Shown: one piece after another, positions 1,285 to 25,795 of the stretch
Numbering within the stretch: position 1 is the stretch's first letter
How the letters are laid out: every line of letters starts with the position of its first letter
Assembly (NCBI GenBank): GCA_012521875.1
Contig: JAAYLN010000084.1
Location: forward strand, 1-38,172
Origin: Lentisphaerota bacterium
Lineage (GTDB): Bacteria; Verrucomicrobiota; Kiritimatiellia; RFP12; JAAYLN01
DNA: 38,172 nucleotides
Direction of reading: 5' to 3'
The notes under the pieces: model-generated
The model's database searches: none
What the model saw: the letters and a program-made list of their open reading frames with translations, nothing else
Told to the model about the DNA's origin: nothing
Translations under genes and position numbers: made by a program

Positions 1285-2193
1285 ATGGACAGGCGAGAGT
1301 TTATCAAGACGGCAGCGGTCGCGACGGCCGCGACGGCCGTCAACCTTAAGGCCGGCGCGCAGACAGCGGCTCCCGCCGAGGCGGGATTATCCACCGTCGT
1401 TGCCGTCCGCAACGGGGATCCCGTGACCATGTTCCGAAAGGGCATCGAGGCCCTCGGCGGCATGAAGGCCTTCGTCAAGCCCGGCCAGAACGTCGTGGTC
1501 AAGCCCAACATCGCATGGGACAGGACGCCGGAATACGGCGCGAACACCTCGCCCGAACTTGTCGCGGAAATCGTGCGCCAGGCGCTCGCCGCAGGTGCCG
1601 GGGAAGTGACCGTGTTCGACCACACCTGCAACGAATGGAAAAGCTGCTACAAGAACAGCGGCATCGAGGCGGCGGCCACGGAGGCAGGAGCGAAAGTGGT
1701 TTCGGCAGGCAGCGAGGGGGACTACGAGCCACGGACGGCCGAGGGTGCGGTGAAAATGAAGAAGGCGCTGATCCACAAGGCACTCCTCGCCGCCGATGTC
1801 GTAATCAACGTGCCAATACTTAAAAACCATGGCGGAGCCAAGATGACGGCCGCCATGAAGAACTGGATGGGCGTGGTGTGGGATCGGGGCTTCATGCACA
1901 GGAACAACCTCCCCCAGTGCATCGCCGACGCCATCTTGTACAGGAAGCCCGACCTGAACGTCATAGACGCCTACCGGGTCATGCTCACCAACGGCCCGCG
2001 GGGCGTCGGCCTTTCCGATGTCGTGGAAAGGAAGTACATGCTGCTGTCGCGGGACATCGTGGCCATTGATTCCCAGGCGGCAAAGATCATGGAGTACTCT
2101 AAAGAGAACGTGCCGTACATCGCCCTCGGGGAAAAACTGGGCCTGGGCACGACCGACCCGCTGAAAATGTCCATCACAAGAATCGACGCATGA
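1285..2193 (+). CDS. DUF362 family protein with Tat signal
   Basis: A 302-residue protein. The N-terminus MDRREFIKTAAVATAA is a textbook twin-arginine signal (RREFIK then an alanine-rich h-region), so the folded protein is probably exported by Tat. The mature part is a DUF362 domain: VVVKPNIAWD near residue 70, a GAGEVTVFDHTC strand, then ADVVINVPILKNHGGAKMTAAMKNWMGV and a C-terminal DLNVIDAYRVM strand. DUF362 proteins often accompany Fe-S proteins, and their reaction is mostly unknown. The ORF track begins at 1066, but the ATG at 1285 gives the Tat signal and has a GAGG-like site upstream. Its stop overlaps the next start (ATGA), and tatA and tatC follow, which fits Tat export. Confidence 0.85.
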   Translation: MDRREFIKTAAVATAATAVNLKAGAQTAAPAEAGLSTVVAVRNGDPVTMFRKGIEALGGMKAFVKPGQNVVVKPNIAWDRTPEYGANTSPELVAEIVRQALAAGAGEVTVFDHTCNEWKSCYKNSGIEAAATEAGAKVVSAGSEGDYEPRTAEGAVKMKKALIHKALLAADVVINVPILKNHGGAKMTAAMKNWMGVVWDRGFMHRNNLPQCIADAILYRKPDLNVIDAYRVMLTNGPRGVGLSDVVERKYMLLSRDIVAIDSQAAKIMEYSKENVPYIALGEKLGLGTTDPLKMSITRIDA

Positions 2194-3683
2194 AGAAGGC
2201 ACCCCGCAGAATCCGCATCGCCACCGCCCTGACGGTGCTTGTCATCCTGGCGCTGGTCTTCGCGGGCAGGCTGCCGCTGCTGCCCCAGGCCGGCCCCGCG
2301 ATTCTGCGCGTTGCCGCCACAGGCGCCGCGACGGCGGCGGTTGTCGTGGCCGTGCTCGTGCTCCTGACATGGCTCTACGGGCGCTTCTACTGCGCGGCGC
2401 TGTGTCCGCTCGGCATCCTGCAGGATTTCATCGGCTGGGTGTCGCGCCGCAAAAGCAAAAGAACGCCACGAAAAAACCTCAAGACGCTGCGCTACACCAT
2501 TCTGGCCGTAACGGCCGGCCTGATTGCGGCAGGCTGGACAATCCCGGCCAAACTATTCGAGCCGTTCTCCGTGTTCGGCCGCTTTTACGCCGGTTTTGTG
2601 ATGCCCGTGTTTGCGAAGTTTGTGCGAAGGCACGGCATCCGGGTGATTGACGGCGACTATGCAGCAAGCGCGGCGGGCATCGCCGCCGGTGCAGGCGTCC
2701 TGGCCGTCCTGATTCTTCTGGTTGTCTGGAAAAGGAGAATCTACTGCACGTCCATCTGCCCCGTGGGAACCCTGCTCGGCCTTTGCTCCAAGGCCGGGGC
2801 TTTCCGCATGAGCATTGGAGAGTCGTGCGTCCACTGCGGAAAATGCGCCACGGTGTGCCCGGCCGGCTGTATCGACCCCGGGGCGGGCACGCTGGACAAC
2901 GAGCGCTGCCTGCGCTGCATGAACTGCGTGGCCGTGTGCCCGCGGAACTCCATCACATGGTCAAGACGCCGTGCCACCGGCAAGGCGGTTTCCCGCCAAC
3001 CCGCTGGAGAAGACGCACGCGAACCGCGCCGCCGCTTCCTGGCGGGCATGGCGGGGACAGTGCTGGCCTCGTTCGGCCTCGGCCGGATATTCAAGCCCAA
3101 CGGAATGGCAAAACGTCCTCCACAGCCCGCAATCTATCCGCCGGGTGGCGGAAGCGCGGCGCGTTTCGAGTCCAAATGCACCGCGTGTCTTCTGTGCGTC
3201 GCGAACTGCGGCGGCAACGTGCTGCGCGCACCGGACTCGAAAATCCGCTCCGTCCATCTGGACTACGAAAAAGGCATGTGCGAGTTCAACTGCAACATGT
3301 GCTCGACAATCTGCCCCACCGGCGCCATCCGCCCCCTGCCGCTTGAGAAGAAACAACGCTGCCGCATCGGAATGGCCGAGCTGCACAAGTCACGCTGCGT
3401 TGCCTTTGTCGACGGCACCCATTGCGGCGCCTGCGCCGAGCATTGCCCGACGGGTGCCTTGCGCATGGTGCAGCACGCGGGCGCCCCCTGCCCCGTTCCG
3501 GAACTGAACAAGGACCTCTGCATCGGATGCGGCAACTGCAGCTACCCATGCCCCGTGAAACCCGTCCCCGCCATGACCGTATCCCCGGTTCCCATCCAGA
3601 CGCAGGCCGCCGACCCTGCACACTATTTCGACAAACCGCCCGCCGAGGCGCACCCCCATCAGGATGACGCCTGGCTGATCTGA
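2190..3683 (+). CDS. membrane polyferredoxin, NapH-NapG-like fusion
   Basis: A 497-residue protein with two parts. Residues 1-260 resemble NapH/NosR-type membrane ferredoxins: hydrophobic segments at about 10-30, 40-62, 100-118 and 160-180, each pair followed by a CxxxCP motif (68-72 and 186-190), then two 4Fe-4S sites (CVHCGKCATVCP, CLRCMNCVAVCP). Residues 280-300 form an internal twin-arginine-like sequence (RRRFLAGMAG) and another hydrophobic segment. Residues 330-460 are NapG-like with four more cysteine groups (CTACLLCVANC, CNMCSTICP, CGACAEHCP, CIGCGNCSYPCP). A role moving electrons across the membrane to the periplasm is inferred. The operon with DUF362 and tatAC supports Tat-dependent placement of the C-terminal half. 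Confidence 0.83.
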   Translation: MKKAPRRIRIATALTVLVILALVFAGRLPLLPQAGPAILRVAATGAATAAVVVAVLVLLTWLYGRFYCAALCPLGILQDFIGWVSRRKSKRTPRKNLKTLRYTILAVTAGLIAAGWTIPAKLFEPFSVFGRFYAGFVMPVFAKFVRRHGIRVIDGDYAASAAGIAAGAGVLAVLILLVVWKRRIYCTSICPVGTLLGLCSKAGAFRMSIGESCVHCGKCATVCPAGCIDPGAGTLDNERCLRCMNCVAVCPRNSITWSRRRATGKAVSRQPAGEDAREPRRRFLAGMAGTVLASFGLGRIFKPNGMAKRPPQPAIYPPGGGSAARFESKCTACLLCVANCGGNVLRAPDSKIRSVHLDYEKGMCEFNCNMCSTICPTGAIRPLPLEKKQRCRIGMAELHKSRCVAFVDGTHCGACAEHCPTGALRMVQHAGAPCPVPELNKDLCIGCGNCSYPCPVKPVPAMTVSPVPIQTQAADPAHYFDKPPAEAHPHQDDAWLI

Positions 3684-3710: not shown

Positions 3711-3944
3711 ATGTCCGTTGGCATGTCTGAAATCCTTCTTATCCTGCTCATTGTCCTGCTCGTGTTCGGCGCGAAGCGCATCCCGGAAATCGCCAGGGCC
3801 CTGGGGCGCGCTTCCTACGAGTTCAAAAAGGCCAAGGGCGAAATCCAAAGGGAAACGGAAGAGCTGATGAAAGAGAGTGAAAAGCTCGCCGAAGCCGAAG
3901 CGAAGAGACCCGACGAGAAGCAAGACGACACCACCCATGGCTGA
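3711..3944 (+). CDS. tatA: Sec-independent translocase subunit TatA
   Basis: A 77-residue protein typical of TatA/TatE: a short N-terminal hydrophobic helix (EILLILLIVLLVFGA), a hinge, the amphipathic helix KRIPEIARALGRASYEFKKA, and a charged Glu/Lys-rich tail. TatA oligomers form the pore through which TatC-bound folded substrates pass. A strong AAGGAG lies 8-9 bases before the ATG. The gene is 27 bases downstream of the polyferredoxin and overlaps tatC. No separate TatB is present in the window, so this is probably a minimal TatA-TatC system. Confidence 0.93.
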   Translation: MSVGMSEILLILLIVLLVFGAKRIPEIARALGRASYEFKKAKGEIQRETEELMKESEKLAEAEAKRPDEKQDDTTHG

Positions 3945-4800
3945 AGCGCAGCCCGACACCTTTATCGCGCATCTCGAGGAACTCCGGCGCACGCTGCTGG
4001 CCTGTCTGGCCTCCTGGGCTCTGGCGCTTCCCGCCGGCCTGGCGCTGGCGCCCTGGACCGTGTCCGCCCTGCTGCGCTGGAGCTGTCCGGCGTCGTTGTC
4101 CACACTGCACTATTTCTCCCCGCTGGAGGTTTTCGTCGTCCACCTCCGGATGGGATGCGTCATCGCGGCGGTGCTGTGCTATCCCTACGCCATGCACCGC
4201 ATCTGGAGATTCCTCCGGCCGGCCTTGTATGACAACGAACGCCAATCCCTGCGTGTCTGGATTGTCTATTCGTCGGTTCTCTTTCTCGCGGGCGGCGCCT
4301 TCTGTATTGCCACGATCCTGCCGATTTTGATGCAATTCTCCGCCTCGTTTGCGACGCCCCGGATCACCCCGGTCATCGGCATTGCCCAGTTCATGTCGCT
4401 GGCGGGCGCGCTGATCCTGGCCTTCGGCGTGATGTTCCAGACGCCGATTGCCGTCTGCGCCCTCGTCAGATTCGGTGTGATCAGCGTGGAGAAGCTGAAG
4501 CAGTCCCGGCCCTATATGCTGATCGTCATCCTGATCGTGGCGGCCATCCTCACGCCCCCCGACGTCCTCAGCCAGATCATGCTGGCCCTGCCGACCTGGC
4601 TCCTGTTCGAGGTGGGGATTTTCCTGGCCTCGCGCACAAGGCCCGCACAACAGCTAGGCGAACAACACCCGCCAGACGAACCCCGCGCGAAACTGATCGA
4701 ACCGCCCCGACCCCAACCCGCCGACGACGACACCAACGGTACCGACGACACCATGCTGTCGTTCTACGAGCAGGAATCCTCGCGAACAGCAAAAGAATAA
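3937..4800 (+). CDS. tatC: Sec-independent translocase subunit TatC
   Basis: A 287-residue polytopic membrane protein and the signal-peptide receptor of the Tat system. The N-terminal FIAHLEELRRTL is the conserved cytoplasmic signature; IWRFLRPALYDNERQSLR matches the conserved loop before the third helix, and six hydrophobic segments follow to about residue 230. The last 50 residues are a Pro/Asp/Glu-rich tail beyond the usual family length. The ORF track uses a GTG at 3877, but the ATG at 3937 places the signature correctly; it overlaps the tatA stop by 8 bases, indicating translational coupling. Confidence 0.93.
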   Translation: MAEAQPDTFIAHLEELRRTLLACLASWALALPAGLALAPWTVSALLRWSCPASLSTLHYFSPLEVFVVHLRMGCVIAAVLCYPYAMHRIWRFLRPALYDNERQSLRVWIVYSSVLFLAGGAFCIATILPILMQFSASFATPRITPVIGIAQFMSLAGALILAFGVMFQTPIAVCALVRFGVISVEKLKQSRPYMLIVILIVAAILTPPDVLSQIMLALPTWLLFEVGIFLASRTRPAQQLGEQHPPDEPRAKLIEPPRPQPADDDTNGTDDTMLSFYEQESSRTAKE

Positions 4801-5264
4801 GGTCTTGCAAGACTCAGGCGGATGACACGGAGACCGTTAACCGCCAAGACGCCAAGAGCGCCAAGTTTTTACGCTTTATTACAACTAGCGCGCCGTCAGA
4901 GTACCGCCTTCAGGCGGAAGTGGTTCAGGGGCTTCAGCCCCGTTCCCATGCCCCCTTTTTCCAAGGGAAAAAGGGCTTCGCGGGCCTGAAGGCCCTTGTT
5001 AACTTCCGGCTGAAGCCGGTACTCCGCCCCGACTGCGCCCCCCATACAGGGACTGTACCGCCAGCCGCGCAATGACCAACCACAAAGGCTGCACGGTACG
5101 GCGGGCACACGGCGTGACTGCCGCGTCTACCATGCTGCCCCTTCAGCCTTACCCACCGCCCCGCGTCCCCCTCATGCCATCTGCTGCATGGTGTGATTTC
5201 ATTGACCCCATTGACCGTGTTGACCTTAATGACGGTGGCCCATCGTGGTGCGGTTCCACGCTGG
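4801..5264. repeat. intergenic repeat block after tatC (dispersed repeat copy 2)
   Basis: There is no gene here. 4839-4865 is a 27-base word built on 'cgccaag' units, identical to 13120-13146. 4898-5174 is the second copy of the 277-bp repeat described at 31-307, with paired hairpin arms at 4898-4921 and 5002-5024. 5200-5233 contains TTGACC repeated every 9 bases. The block ends at the stop of the disrupted beta-helix gene, which points towards it. Confidence 0.8.
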
Positions 5265-8665: not shown

Positions 8666-11287
8666 CTACATCAGGCTCACCGCATCTATATCCACCGCCA
8701 GCCAGACGCCCTCGGGCAGGCGTGCAGCGCGCAGGGCGCGGCGCAGGGCGCTGGTGATCGTCCGTGTGGCGGAAGCCCGCAGAATGATCTGGTACCGGTA
8801 ATGGTTGCGCATCTTGGCCAGCGCCGCAGGCACGGCTTCGGAGACGAGCAGTCCCCGTATATTCAGTTCACCGAGCCGCCGTGCCAGCGCCTCGGCCGTG
8901 AAGGCCACGTGCGACTCCTCGGCACCGCGCAGTGTCAGGCAGGCCAGATGGATGTAGGGGGGATACCCGAGCTTTTCGCGTATAGGCAGCTCGCCAGCGG
9001 CAAAGGCCTCGAAATCCTCGGTACAGGCGGCGGTGACGGCGGGATGGCCGGGCGTGTAGGTCTGGATGATCACCTCGCCGGGCGTGGCACCGCGTCCCGT
9101 GCGCCCGGCCACCTGCGCCAGCAGTTGGAAGGTGCGCTCGCCGGCCCGGAAGTCGGGCAGGTGCAGGCTGGAGTCGGCCAGCACGATGCCGACGAGCGTG
9201 ACATTCGGGAAATGGAGTCCCTTGGCGATCATCTGCGTGCCGATCAGGATGTCGGTACGTCCGGTGCGGAAGGCGCCGAGGATGTCGTCGTGACTCAGCT
9301 TGCGCGAGGTGGAATCAGCATCCATGCGTCCGAGGCGCGCGGCGGGGAAGCAGCGGGCGATGATCTGCTCCAGACGCTGTGTACCGAAGCCGGCATAGCG
9401 GAACTTGGGGTCGTGGCAGGCGGGGCAGTCGGCGGCCGGCCGTTCCCAGGCACCGCAGATGTGGCAGCGCAGGCAGTCGTCGGCACGGTGGTAGGTGAAG
9501 GCGATGTCGCATGCCTTGCACGTGGCGACGAAGCCGCACGCGGGACAGACTAGCGAGGTGGAGTAGCCGCGGCGGTTGAGGAAGAGCATGGTCTGTTCGC
9601 CGCGCTTCAGGCGTTCGCCGATGGCGTCGAGCAGGGTTTTGGAGAAGACCTGCACATGTCCGCTGCGTGCCTGCTCCCGCCGCATATCAACCACCTGCAC
9701 CATGGGCATGGCGGCATGGTCGGCGCGGTGGGTAAGGCGCGTGGTGGCGTACTTGCCGCGCTGCACATTGCGCCAGGATTCGAGCGATGGCGTGGCCGAC
9801 CCCAGCAGCACGGCGCAGGGCTCGAAGTGGCCGCGCATGACGGCCACGTCGCGCGCGTGGTAGCGCGGCGCCTCGTCCTGCTTGTAGCTCGGCTCGTGCT
9901 CCTCGTCAACCACGATGAGTCCCAGCCGCTCGACCGGCGCGAAGACCGCCGAGCGCGGGCCGACGACCACGCGCGCCTCGCCGCGGCGGATGCGCTGCCA
10001 CTCGTCGTAGCGCTCGCCATCGCCCAGCGCGCTGTGGAGCACCGCTATGCGGTCGCCGAAGCGGCCCGCGAAGCGCTGCACGGTCTGCGGTGTGAGCGCG
10101 ATCTCCGGCACCAGCACGATTGCGCCGCGCCCCTGCTCCAGCACGTGCGCAATGGCCTGGAGATAGACCTCGGTCTTGCCCGAACCCGTGACGCCATAGA
10201 GCAGGAGCGGCCTGGGTGGTTGGTGAGTGGTGAGTGGTGAGTGGTGAGTGGTGAGTGGTTGGTGGTTGGCGGTTGATGGTTGGTGGTTGATGGTTGGTGG
10301 GGAGGCTGGTGGAGCCGCTTCCGACAAAGTTACCGACAAAGCTCGCGACAAAGTTGGGGATTCTCCTGAACCCTGAACCCTGAACCCTGTCCCCTCTCCA
10401 GAGGCGGCCACGATGGCCGCCAGCGCGGCGGCCTGCTCGGGATTCAGCGCCAGCGGGCGTGTCGGCAGGATGTGGCGGTTGGCGAGCGGATCGCGCCGGA
10501 TGGCGCGTGGTGTGATGGTGATGCGTCCGGCGGCCTCCAGCCTGCGCAGCGTCTCCGGCGCACAGGAGAACTCGGTGCAGAGGGACTGCAGCCAGCCACC
10601 GCCGACGCGCCGGATGTTGTCGAGCAACTCCTGCTGGCGCGGTGTGAGGGTTGGTGGTTGATGGTTGGTGGTGGGTGGTGAGGCTGGTGGAGGCGCTTCC
10701 CCTTCCGCTTCCGACAAAGTTACCGACAAAGCTCGCGACAAAGTGGGTGCTCTGGCCTGTTCCAACTGCCTACTGCCACTGCCTACTGCTACTCCCTGTC
10801 TCCTGTCCCCTGTCTCCTGTCCCCTGTCTCCTGTCTCCTGTCCCCCGTCCCCCGTCTCCTCCACCGCCTCGACGAAGAGCTGCTCCTTCTGCTGTGTGCG
10901 CCCGCTGCGCACCGGTGCCGGCAGCACGGCCTGCAGGCAGCGCTCGAGCGGTGCGCAGTAGTAGTCGGCGATCCAGCGTGCCAGTTTCAACAGCGAGGGC
11001 AGGATGAAGGTCTGTTCGCCATCTACCGATATAATGCTCTTGAGCCCGGCCGTGGGCGGCGGAGCCGGCAGTCCCGGCAGCAGCGGCAGCTCCGGCGCCG
11101 CGGATGCGGCGGCGGCATCGCGTGGCGCTGTGGTCTCGGCGAGCTCGACGATATAGCCAGTGGCGGTACGGTGGCCGAAGGGCACCGTGACGCGCGCCCC
11201 CGGCAGGGCGCGGTCGCGCAGGGTCTCGGGTATGGCATAGTCGAAGAGCCGTCCGAGATCGGCATCCATGGCAACGCGGGCGAACAT
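8666..11287 (-). CDS. priA: primosomal protein N' (PriA helicase) with two repeat-derived inserts
   Basis: An 873-residue replication-restart helicase. The N-terminal DNA-binding domain (ARVTVPFGHRTATGYIVE) is followed by a winged-helix region (LTPRQQELLDNIRR) and the helicase core with Walker A GVTGSGKTEVYL (about residue 365), VPEIALTPQ, DEEHEPSYKQ and GTQMIAKGLHFP. Paired zinc-binding cysteines (CPACG, CKAC, CLRCHIC, CPAC) are present, and the C-terminal domain is intact. Residues about 143-215 and 298-361 are low-complexity inserts encoded by tandem repeats that also occur between genes. Both fall in linkers, one before the winged helix and one just before Walker A. Without them the length is about 737, close to the usual 730. 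The start at 11287 follows a terminator hairpin of the upstream gene. Confidence 0.95.
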   Translation of the reverse strand: MFARVAMDADLGRLFDYAIPETLRDRALPGARVTVPFGHRTATGYIVELAETTAPRDAAAASAAPELPLLPGLPAPPPTAGLKSIISVDGEQTFILPSLLKLARWIADYYCAPLERCLQAVLPAPVRSGRTQQKEQLFVEAVEETGDGGQETGDRGQETGDRRQGVAVGSGSRQLEQARAPTLSRALSVTLSEAEGEAPPPASPPTTNHQPPTLTPRQQELLDNIRRVGGGWLQSLCTEFSCAPETLRRLEAAGRITITPRAIRRDPLANRHILPTRPLALNPEQAAALAAIVAASGEGTGFRVQGSGESPTLSRALSVTLSEAAPPASPPTINHQPSTANHQPLTTHHSPLTTHQPPRPLLLYGVTGSGKTEVYLQAIAHVLEQGRGAIVLVPEIALTPQTVQRFAGRFGDRIAVLHSALGDGERYDEWQRIRRGEARVVVGPRSAVFAPVERLGLIVVDEEHEPSYKQDEAPRYHARDVAVMRGHFEPCAVLLGSATPSLESWRNVQRGKYATTRLTHRADHAAMPMVQVVDMRREQARSGHVQVFSKTLLDAIGERLKRGEQTMLFLNRRGYSTSLVCPACGFVATCKACDIAFTYHRADDCLRCHICGAWERPAADCPACHDPKFRYAGFGTQRLEQIIARCFPAARLGRMDADSTSRKLSHDDILGAFRTGRTDILIGTQMIAKGLHFPNVTLVGIVLADSSLHLPDFRAGERTFQLLAQVAGRTGRGATPGEVIIQTYTPGHPAVTAACTEDFEAFAAGELPIREKLGYPPYIHLACLTLRGAEESHVAFTAEALARRLGELNIRGLLVSEAVPAALAKMRNHYRYQIILRASATRTITSALRRALRAARLPEGVWLAVDIDAVSLM
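10207..10395. repeat. repeat insert inside priA, preceding Walker A
   Basis: Plus-strand order: GAGTGGT heptamers (about 10220-10258), 'ggttggtggttgat' heptamers to 10300, the 38-base CGACAAAG module (10317-10354), then ACCCTGA heptamers (about 10369-10388). The reading frame stays open and is translated as PTLSRALSVTLSEA and Thr/His/Pro-rich text. Boundaries are set by where PriA-like sequence stops and resumes. Confidence 0.85.
10645..10862. repeat. repeat insert inside priA, preceding the winged-helix region
   Basis: Plus-strand order: 'ttggtggttgatgg' heptamers, the same 38-base CGACAAAG module (10707-10744), a 'gctctggcctgttccaactg' link, ACTGCCT/ACTGCC units, then eight or so CTGTCCC/CTGTCTC heptamers up to 10860. 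The frame is open throughout and gives Gly/Asp/Gln/Thr repeats (TGDGGQETGDRGQ) in the protein. It shares its module order with 8549-8640 and 16584-16650. Confidence 0.85.
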
Positions 11288-16380: not shown

Positions 16381-16894
16381 ACGCGGCGTCTAGGCTGAGA
16401 CGCCCCCAGCCACTCTCTCTTTCGCTTTTGACAAAGCGTAGGGACAAAGTGCGGAGACGAAGCGTAGCCGACAAAGCGTGGAGACAAGGTGTGGGGACAA
16501 GGTGTAGGTGCGAAGCACACACTTAAACCCTCTCTTAATCTCACTCTTAAACGGCACACTTCATCCACCCGCTTAATCTTTAGCTTTCGACAACGTTTCC
16601 GCCAAAGCTCGCGACAAAGTGGCGTCTCTGGCCTGTTCCAACTGGCGACCGCCGGTCGCCAGTGGCCCCACTAGTCTTAGACACTCTGCACCAAATCCGC
16701 GAAATCCGCGCACATGCGCCTGCGAAGCAGGACATCCGTAGCTTCATCCTACCGCGCAGCGGCCATCCAAAACAATCCTGTTAATCCTGAAATCCTGTCA
16801 AAAAAACAGCGGGGCAGGCCCGGAAAATCCTGAAAATCGTATCTCGCGCCTGTTCCAACCGCCCCGCAGGGGCGGCGGCGTTACTGAACCCTAA
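16381..16894. repeat. intergenic repeat mosaic between the ABC genes and obg
   Basis: No gene is present. 16428-16505 carries six or more GACAAAG/GACAAGG words 13-17 bases apart. 16584-16650 is a diverged copy of the composite module also at 8549-8640 and 10707-10800, ending in 'gtctctggcctgttccaact'. 16708-16736 is a 29-base word identical to 8470-8498. 16774-16809 and 16825-16840 contain 'aatcctg' units. 16859-16875 repeats the CCGCCCC-GCA-GGGGCGG palindrome seen after priA. Confidence 0.8.
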
Positions 16895-22934: not shown

Positions 22935-25795
22935 GAATATTTGAGCTGGCCCAGGAGTTGCAAACGACAAGCGGCGAGGTGCTGCGCTTGGCGCGGGCGC
23001 TGGACCTGGACGCCAGGTCAACCCTGTCGCGCCTGGACAACGACGATGTCCAGACGTTGAAGCGCAGCATGGCCTCGCAGCCGTCTGGGGCAAGACAGGT
23101 TCCGGTCAAGACACAGGCTCTTCTGGCCGCCAAGCGCAAGCGCGCCGCGCAACAGAGAGACGCCAAGGCGGCTGCCGAACGGCAGGCGCTTGAGGCGGCG
23201 ATCTCGCGTGCCCGCGAAGCGCACGCGCGTGCCAGCGGCGAAGCACCGGACACCAAGCCGTCCAGGAAGACCGATGCCCCGGTCGAGGCTGCTGCGGCAG
23301 CACCGGCCACCGGGACGCCGGACGTGCCTGAGAAGACCCTGAAGATCGAGCCCCTGCCGCCTGTCGAGGTGGAGGGCAAGGTCATCATCCATGCTGCGGT
23401 CGAAACCCTGGAGCCCGCAGAGAAGACCGGTTCGCATGCGGCAGAGGATGATGATCGCGACTCACACGGCGTCGAGATTGATCCCGACGAGGAGTTCGAC
23501 CCCGACGAGGAGATTGCCACGGCCTATCTCGGCCGGCAGGCCAAGACCCCGCAGACATCCAAGGCGCACCCCATGCGTCCCAAGGAGACGCGTGACGTCG
23601 ACTTGCCGCGGCCGCCCGCGGGCAAACGCGGAGCCGCTGCGGCAGCCAAGACACCGGCCTCCAGGCGAGGCACCCGGGATGCCGCCGGCAGGGCCGCACA
23701 GGCGCAGGACCGCCGCGAAGAGGCCGCACAGGCACGCGGCCAGAAGGGCGGCATCCCGCGCGGGCTGCAGCAGGGCATTCCACGCGGACAGCAGGGCATC
23801 GTGCGCGGCAAGCAGGACGGAGGTATCCCGCGCGGGCTGCAGCAGGGCATTCCACGCGGACAGCAGGGCATCGTGCGCGGCAAGCAGGACGCTGGTATCC
23901 CACGCGGCAAGCAGGGCGGCATTCCGCGCGGCAAGCAGACCGCCACCGAGCGCGGTGCCACACCCGCCAGGCAGCGCTTCGCCCCCGTCGTCTCCAGCGC
24001 CCCATCGGCCGACAAGGTGATCCAACTGCGCGGCCCTATCCCCCTCAAGGATCTGGCCGAGATGATGGGCATCCGCCCCAACCGCCTGATCGCCGACCTG
24101 ATGCAGTTGAACGTGCTCGTCTCGATCAACCAGCGGGTCGACATCGAGCGGGCCGGCAAGATCGCCGAAAAGTACGGCTACACCGTCGAGATGGAGCGCA
24201 CCCGCCGCTCCGCGACGCGCAAGCCGACCATCAAGCGCCTCGATGAGGAGGACGACATCCCCGAGGACCAGCCCGAGGATATGAAGCCGCGTCCGCCCGT
24301 CGTGACCTTCCTCGGCCACGTCGACCACGGCAAGACCTCCCTCATGGACTACATCCGCGAGGCCAAGGTGGTCGCCGGCGAGGCCGGCGGTATCACGCAG
24401 CACATCGGCGCCTACTCCGTCGAGGTCGCCGGGCGCAAGATCACTTTCCTTGATACGCCGGGTCATGCGGCCTTCTCGGCCATGCGCGCCCGCGGCGCCA
24501 ACCTCACCGACATCGCCGTGATCATCATCGCCGCGGACGACGGCATCATGCCGCAGACGCGCGAGGTCATCAGGCAGGCCCAGCAGGCCGGGGTGCAGCT
24601 CATGGTTGCGATCAACAAGTGCGACCTGCCCTCCGCCAAGCCCGACCGCGTGCGCCAGCAACTGCAAGGCGAAGGCCTCACCCCCGAGGAGTGGGGCGGC
24701 GACCTGATCGTCTGCGAGGTCAGCGCCATGACCGGCCAGGGCGTCGACCACCTGCTCGAGATGATCCTGCTCCAGGCCGATATGCTGGAACTCGAGGCCA
24801 ACCCCGACCGCCGCGCCGATGGCTACGTCATCGAGGCGCAGCTCGAGCTGGGCCGTGGCCCGACGGCCACCCTGCTCGTCTCCTCGGGCACGCTCAAGCA
24901 GGGCGATGTTGTGCTAATCGGCGAGCATTTCGGCCGCCTGCGCGGCCTGGTTGACGACCGCGGCCGCAAGGTGCTCAAGGCCGGCCCGGCCACGGCCGTG
25001 CGCGTCATGGGCCTCTCGGGCGTGCCCGAGGCCGGCGCGGAGTTCCGCGTGATGGTCAACGAGAAGCGCGCCCGCGAGCTGGCGGAGAAGTTCGCCCAGG
25101 AACGCAAGGACGCCGAGCTGACCGCCGCCAGCCGTACCGTGACGATGGACACCCTGCTCGAAAAGCTCACCGAGCAGGAGAAGAAGCAGCTCAACGTGAT
25201 CGTCAAGGGCGACACCCAGGGCTCGGTCGAGGCGATCGTTGACTCGCTGCGCGACATCCGCAGCGAGAAGATCGCGCTGGAGATCATCAACACCGGCGTC
25301 GGCAACATCTCCACTACCGACGTGCAGCGCGCTGCGGCCAGTGATTCCCTGGTGGTGGGCTTCCAGGTGGGGCTGGACACAGGCGTTGCGGCGCTGGCGC
25401 GCCACGAGAATGTGCGAGCCCAGACCTTCCGCATCATCTACGAGCTCTTCGACCATGTGAAACAGGCGATGCTCGACCTGCTCGACCCCGAGTACCGCGA
25501 AGTCCACAAGGGCGAGGCGCAGATCCGTGCCATCTTCGACATCGGCCGCAAGGGCCGTGTCGCCGGATGCCAGTTGCTCGGCGGCACCATTGCCACCCGC
25601 TTCCGCGTGCGTATCAAGCGTGCCCGCGAGGTGATCTTCGACGGCCGCATCGCCTCGCTGCGCCACTTCCAGGACGAGGTGCCCGAGGTCAGCGACCTGC
25701 AGGAGTGCGGTATCTTCTTCGACGGCTTCGAGGATTTCGCCGAGGGCGATATCGTCGAATGCTACGCCATGGAAGAGCTCGAGCGCACGTTGTAG
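22931..25795 (+). CDS. infB: translation initiation factor IF-2 with unusual repeat linker
   Basis: A 954-residue GTPase that brings initiator tRNA to the 30S subunit. There are two IF2-N modules (residues 1-50, [20 protein letters not shown]; and about 358-430, [18 protein letters not shown]). The G domain starts near residue 458 with [21 protein letters not shown] and SAMTG. Domains II-IV complete the usual length. Between the IF2-N modules is a long low-complexity linker. Its residues 273-337 consist of eight GI[P/V]RG[L/Q/K]Q units, encoded in part by a 72-bp tandem duplication. The basic repeat is not a standard IF2 feature. Translation is coupled to nusA. Confidence 0.97.
23750..23941 (+). 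repeat. tandem repeat in infB encoding GIPRGxQ units
   Basis: Two 72-bp units (23750-23821 and 23822-23893) differ at only a few bases and are followed by two shorter related units up to 23941. Each encodes variations of Gly-Ile-Pro/Val-Arg-Gly-X-Gln. The near-identity at DNA level indicates recent expansion. Confidence 0.9.

Follow-up and report, generated by a model that had tools for sequence, protein, structure and literature searches.

The question raised by this locus is why a gene for an iron-sulfur membrane protein with a twin-arginine motif in the middle of its chain should lie beside genes of the twin-arginine translocation (Tat) exporter, and which enzyme this arrangement might serve. 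The stretch of DNA analysed here (hereafter the window) comprises 38,172 nucleotides of a contig of a Lentisphaerota bacterium, on the plus strand of which are found, in order, genes for a DUF362 protein (1285..2193), a polyferredoxin (PFD; 2190..3683), TatA (3711..3944) and TatC (3937..4800). All four run in the same direction with ends that overlap or nearly touch: the DUF362 stop and the PFD start share ATGA, and the tatC start lies inside the end of tatA. On balance we favor the reading that these genes form one redox module, in which a Tat-exported enzyme of the nickel-pincer nucleotide (NPN) type would be linked to the quinone pool through a PFD that is targeted by both the Sec and Tat systems.

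The PFD open reading frame (ORF) encodes 497 amino acids and matches the NapH-type Fer4_5 domain in two stretches along with several Fer4 domains; against the NCBIfam equivalogs it falls under both cut-offs (57 of 234 bits for NapH and 53.5 of 269 for NapG), and a fold search returned ferredoxin-type matches only. It is a NapH-NapG fusion in which the motif RRRFLAG stands directly before the fifth hydrophobic segment, as the initial annotation had stated with the right coordinates. The NapH-like part (2391..2939) has CxxxCP pairs at residues 68/72 and 186/190 and two cytoplasmic-type Fer4 sites at residues 213-250. RRRFLAG begins at residue 280, within a model helix (residues 277-300; 3018..3089) that includes the fifth of five predicted transmembrane segments (TM1-TM5), and an even number of these precedes the motif. 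The NapG-like four-cluster domain (3168..3563), predicted to be periplasmic, carries its cysteine sets at residues 330-454. An alignment with 55 relatives showed that almost every one of the 28 cluster cysteines is invariant; together they form seven predicted [4Fe-4S] sets, three before the twin arginine and four after it. The twin arginine itself, whose loss in homologs the initial annotation had named as fatal to dual targeting, is present in 54/55 relatives (R280 in 55/55 and R281 in 54/55). Because the two arginines are conserved inside a linker that otherwise varies, their presence is evidently not due to chance. TM5 has a hydrophobicity of 1.48 as against 2.37 for TM1 and 2.49 for TM2, with TM3 about as weak as TM5, on the approximate Kyte-Doolittle (KD) scale rather than the dG server used by Tooke et al. 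2017; the residues after TM5 include three positive and no negative charges.

Dual targeting of this family is not new. The study of Tooke et al. 2017 (eLife 26577, PMC5449189) describes the same PFD family with NapH and NapG fused, five transmembrane segments, seven [4Fe-4S] clusters and a twin arginine before TM5; it reports that MBP and AmiA reporters on the PFD from the delta proteobacterium MLMS-1 were moved in a Tat-dependent manner, with substitution of the twin arginines as the test, and that the handover from Sec to Tat is set by low hydrophobicity of TM5 and downstream positive charges. As that work precedes ours, any claim to novelty on this point is dropped. For the window protein, the initial proposal that Sec inserts the first helices and Tat moves the folded C-terminal ferredoxin is well supported by the conservation of the twin arginine and by the tested MLMS-1 homolog. 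As shown for that homolog by others, Sec would insert TM1-4 and the twin arginine would pass TM5 and the folded NapG-like domain to Tat, placing three clusters inside and four outside. The Tat machine specified by the adjacent genes probably exports the outer half of PFD in a folded state.

The family also shows variation in architecture. Three relatives (L074, L075 and L076) have PFDs of 627-662 amino acids with two NapG-like units in tandem and approximately eight extracytoplasmic clusters. At L125 (genome G161) a lipobox-like LSGC follows the internal twin arginine, and cleavage and lipidation of the exported domain may therefore take place; at L077, L078 and L036 TM5 ends in AxA-like sites. 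A second PFD type of about 440-460 amino acids (L120, L121, L124, L148, L158, L159, L078 and L153) adjoins either aldo/keto reductases that bear a Tat signal and Fer4 sites or DUF362 proteins of a second type, which contain H-x9-K.

The gene before PFD does encode a Tat-signal DUF362 protein, as initially recognized (PF04015, 8.5e-49; PF10518 TAT_signal; N-terminal MDRREF). What that reading missed, and what is new here, is the LarA-like nature of this protein together with the presence of lar genes in its cluster. PFD was found in 107 of 388 Verrucomicrobiota genomes at E <= 1e-35, and 73 of these were searched for TatC and DUF362; DUF362 is the most constant neighbor of PFD, with the pair present in most of the genomes so searched, and an actinobacterial metagenome-assembled genome (L040) has the order DUF362-NapH-NapG. 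When the AlphaFold model of the window DUF362 (predicted local distance difference test score 84) was compared with the PDB using Foldseek, the top 18 matches were all members of the LarA family, i.e. lactate/malate racemases and LarA-like enzymes (E 5.5e-6 to 1.9e-4; probability 1.00 for the best; query TM-score 0.38-0.52). DUF362 and the LarA domain also belong to a common Pfam clan, CL0471 (PMC11770544). When profiles built from mixed sets of DUF362 and LarA were compared, H113, H182, K192 and H205 fell on the catalytic His, the second catalytic His, the cofactor Lys and the Ni-ligand His respectively. H182, K192 and H205 (1828..1899, plus strand) are the predicted equivalents of the LarA catalytic His174, NPN-anchor Lys and Ni-ligand His and are invariant in 35/35 relatives; in the numbering of L. 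plantarum LarA we take K192 to correspond to Lys184 and H205 to His200. A Pfam scan of the window protein reported only DUF362 and TAT_signal, with no match to PF09861 (Lar_N), and a PDB sequence search gave nothing useful. A literature search that did not cover bioRxiv or most subscription papers found none in which DUF362 is treated as an NPN protein. As its fold and residues match the N-terminal NPN-holding site of LarA, the window DUF362 would most likely be an NPN or NPN-like hydride-transfer enzyme.

Given the fold match to LarA, we therefore searched for LarC (PF01969), and genomes were searched for LarB and LarE by means of a chimeric LarB+LarE query. In about a dozen genomes, spread over families f3, f4, f5, f42, f44 and f48, larB, larC or larE genes occur within the PFD cluster. 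G064 has DUF362-PFD-LarB-LarC-LarE-TatA-TatC contiguously on one strand. Comparable arrangements are PFD-LarB-LarC-LarE-Tat-DUF362 (G041), PFD-LarB-TatA-TatC-Tat-DUF362 (G123), LarC-tatAC-DUF362-PFD (G311), PFD-LarC-LarE-TatA (G103), PFD-LarB-LarC-LarE (G182), PFD-LarC (G349), LarB after PFD (G067), LarC-LarE-LarB near DUF362-PFD (G267) and LarE-LarC-TatC-TatA-DUF362-(Tat-signal protein)-NapG (G025), and in G016 and G393 LarE, LarB and LarC accompany a Tat aldo/keto reductase and PFD. NCBIfam equivalog cut-offs are passed by LarB of G041, G123, G182 and G178 and by LarC and LarE of G041, the remaining Lar proteins being labeled by sequence similarity. LarB, LarC and LarE are present in the genome to which the window belongs and in most relatives tested; G161 has all three along with DUF362-PFD, and no PF09861 match was found in it. 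From the fold, the residues and these clusters we infer that DUF362 binds NPN.

Canonical LarA is encoded in G215 (L134) and G312 (L133), in which LarB, LarC and LarE are not detectable. A LarA-like ORF of divergent sequence (L136, on contig C351) is encoded in the window's genome and carries the H-x9-K-N motif VVPHEVVGMANHNKN, which is intermediate between the LarA and DUF362 forms; this ORF rules out for that genome the notion that LarBCE here always occur without LarA.

TatA matches PF02416 (8.9e-18) and TIGR01411 (58.7 vs cut-off 53.9), and TatC matches PF00902 (1.7e-50) and TIGR00945 (156.4 vs cut-off 132.7). The window TatC is the only one detected in its genome (93% complete), and TatC is likewise single in all 45 TatC-bearing genomes of a 59-genome set of relatives. 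Hence the initial wording that PFD lies next to its own tatAC holds for the adjacency but misleads in so far as it implies a dedicated extra copy, and a dedicated second Tat system is ruled out; no further tatC copies, which by the initial annotation would have weakened the module idea, were detected. Of the 73 PFD genomes 72 have TatC, and in 27 of them, representing five families, it is encoded no more than 5 kb from PFD, as against about 0.3 expected by chance; since related genomes are not independent, the tail probability of this linkage is not to be taken literally. At least five gene orders are seen among the linked loci, including tatAC-DUF362-PFD (L113-L118), tatAC divergent from DUF362-PFD (L108-L111), PFD-tatAC (L120, L121 and L124), tatAC-PFD (L122 and L123) and DUF362-PFD-tatAC (the window, L035 and L062). 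The exact four-gene order was seen only in the window's genome, G001 and L035 of G178, and the idea that it is widespread was given up, whereas linkage in other orders is common. Because the linkage survives rearrangement, its conservation argues for a functional association rather than plain inheritance, and the initial proposal of exporter and cargo as a single module is strongly supported by it. The TAT_signal profile matches a single gene, that for DUF362, in each of the window's genome, G001, G178 and G064, and it finds no match in four TatC-less relatives; as this profile is weak these results are no census, and they give a hint of a small set of Tat substrates.

Taken together, these observations suggest a scheme in which DUF362 would be loaded with NPN in the cytoplasm by LarB, LarC and LarE and then, judging from its signal and the linkage, exported folded by Tat. 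Electrons would pass by way of PFD, in one direction or the other, between DUF362 and the quinone pool, as the analogy with NapGH and the constant pairing suggest; both this electron path and the binding of NPN are what we infer. DUF362 would then not run the closed cycle of a racemase but would oxidize or reduce 2-hydroxy acids or sugars in the periplasm, and tatAC would sit here because DUF362 and PFD are among the main cargoes of one small Tat system. Extending the scheme to DUF362 proteins of this type as a class, i.e. as NPN enzymes that receive their cofactor in the cytoplasm, cross the membrane folded via Tat and are connected with the quinone pool through a dual Sec/Tat-targeted PFD, is a more tentative step that we place just short of an even chance. 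If true, this would to our knowledge be the first periplasmic NPN enzyme, and likewise the first to transfer electrons externally. These clusters make DUF362, a widespread family without an assigned function, a candidate receiver of NPN, and our reading names K192 as the candidate anchor residue, the periplasm as the predicted place and PFD as the predicted redox partner. It would also provide one explanation for the many genomes in which larBCE occur and larA does not, a situation seen in about 15% of genomes analysed by others, with no receiving protein identified (PMC11796402). In genetic terms, the clusters further offer a clear example of Tat genes that travel together with cofactor-bearing cargo.

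Several observations weigh against the favored reading. The best of these is that LarB, LarC and LarE are undetectable in four genomes that are 97-100% complete (G149, G215, G226 and G312) despite the presence of DUF362-PFD with the H/K/H residues; with these as counterexamples, strict dependence of DUF362 on LarBCE was rejected. The lar genes of the window's own genome lie on other contigs, unlinked to the window, and their product could be used by the LarA-like ORF L136. Co-occurrence of PFD with LarC is moderate (84/107 vs 155/281, p 1.3e-5, a statistic that ignores kinship), and G014 has PFD with no TatC detected. H113, matching the first catalytic His, is kept in 27/35 relatives, the other 8/35 having Thr or Asn in its place; in the profile-profile comparison a hand-built set reached a modest P of 0.004, and hhalign run on narrow alignments detected no signal. 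At L078 and L153, clusters of LarBCE, aldo/keto reductase and PFD have no adjacent DUF362, and at L120, L121, L148 and L159 the partner is, in place of DUF362, an aldo/keto reductase that has a Tat signal and Fer4 sites.

Owing to such replacements PFD may serve several partners, and it could be a general hub from quinol to the periplasm for several Tat-exported oxidoreductases. DUF362 would then be one of these partners, using some other cofactor or no cofactor at all, and lar genes would be neighbors since some partners use NPN. The four genomes with no detectable LarBCE are in keeping with this account, which we nevertheless consider rather unlikely given the match of DUF362 to the LarA fold, its invariant Lys/His residues and the recurrence of lar genes in the cluster across several families. 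The adjacency of tatAC might likewise be incidental, with tatAC as the housekeeping exporter that happens to sit here. In favor of this, the window tatC is the genome's only copy, and in 46/73 genomes, Akkermansia-type genomes among them, no TatC was found within 5 kb of PFD; the excess of linked loci over expectation, in rearranged orders and several families, makes this improbable. Least probable is that the C-terminal domain stays in the cytoplasm, with the twin arginine a topology signal only. The topology of the window protein is indeed a prediction, but the reporters on the MLMS-1 homolog were exported via Tat, no part of the linker is as well conserved as the twin arginine, and the separate NapG genes of natural split versions (L080, L081 and L040) bear a twin arginine of their own at the N-terminus. 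A redox module with an exported NPN-type enzyme remains our preferred reading of the four genes.

Certain other features of the window may be noted. A 278-nucleotide direct repeat (86% identical; 30-307 and 4897-5174) flanks the whole segment from hicA to tatC and could be an intergenic repeat or a trace of mobility. Directly upstream of DUF362, on the opposite strand (616-1281, minus), are a HicA-type toxin gene (PF07927) and its probable HicB partner, which has no Pfam match. The PriA ORF (8666-11287, minus) contains, around 10236-10867, dispersed-repeat stretches read in frame as low-complexity inserts, comprising 14-nucleotide tandem units and an 84-nucleotide repeat that also occurs at 16570. 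A 72-nucleotide tandem repeat (94%; 23741-23884) falls within the N-terminal region of infB (IF-2).

Comparison with known systems places the components of the module as follows. DUF362 resembles the LarA superfamily in its clan, its fold, the Lys/His pattern of the cofactor site and the lar genes in the cluster of relatives; unlike LarA it is shorter (~300 amino acids), has no PF09861 match, bears a Tat signal and adjoins a PFD, whereas racemases need no electron partner. The NapH/NapG quinol dehydrogenase of nitrate respiration has the same two modules as PFD, a membrane quinol side and a periplasmic ferredoxin; the window PFD differs in being one fused chain far under the equivalog cut-offs, with no napA seen in the cluster. 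The actinobacterial Rieske protein QcrA is alike in that Sec inserts its first helices and Tat the last one with the Fe-S domain, but it is an unrelated protein with three transmembrane segments. The MLMS-1 PFD (Q1NSB0) of Tooke et al. 2017 shares with the window protein the NapH-NapG fusion, five transmembrane segments, the twin arginine before TM5, three cytoplasmic and four extracytoplasmic [4Fe-4S] clusters, a weakly hydrophobic TM5 and positive charges after it. DUF362 goes unmentioned in that paper, and the passages drawn on here report no tat linkage, in contrast to the window locus, and some of the PFD relatives found here differ from the MLMS-1 protein in bearing a second NapG unit.
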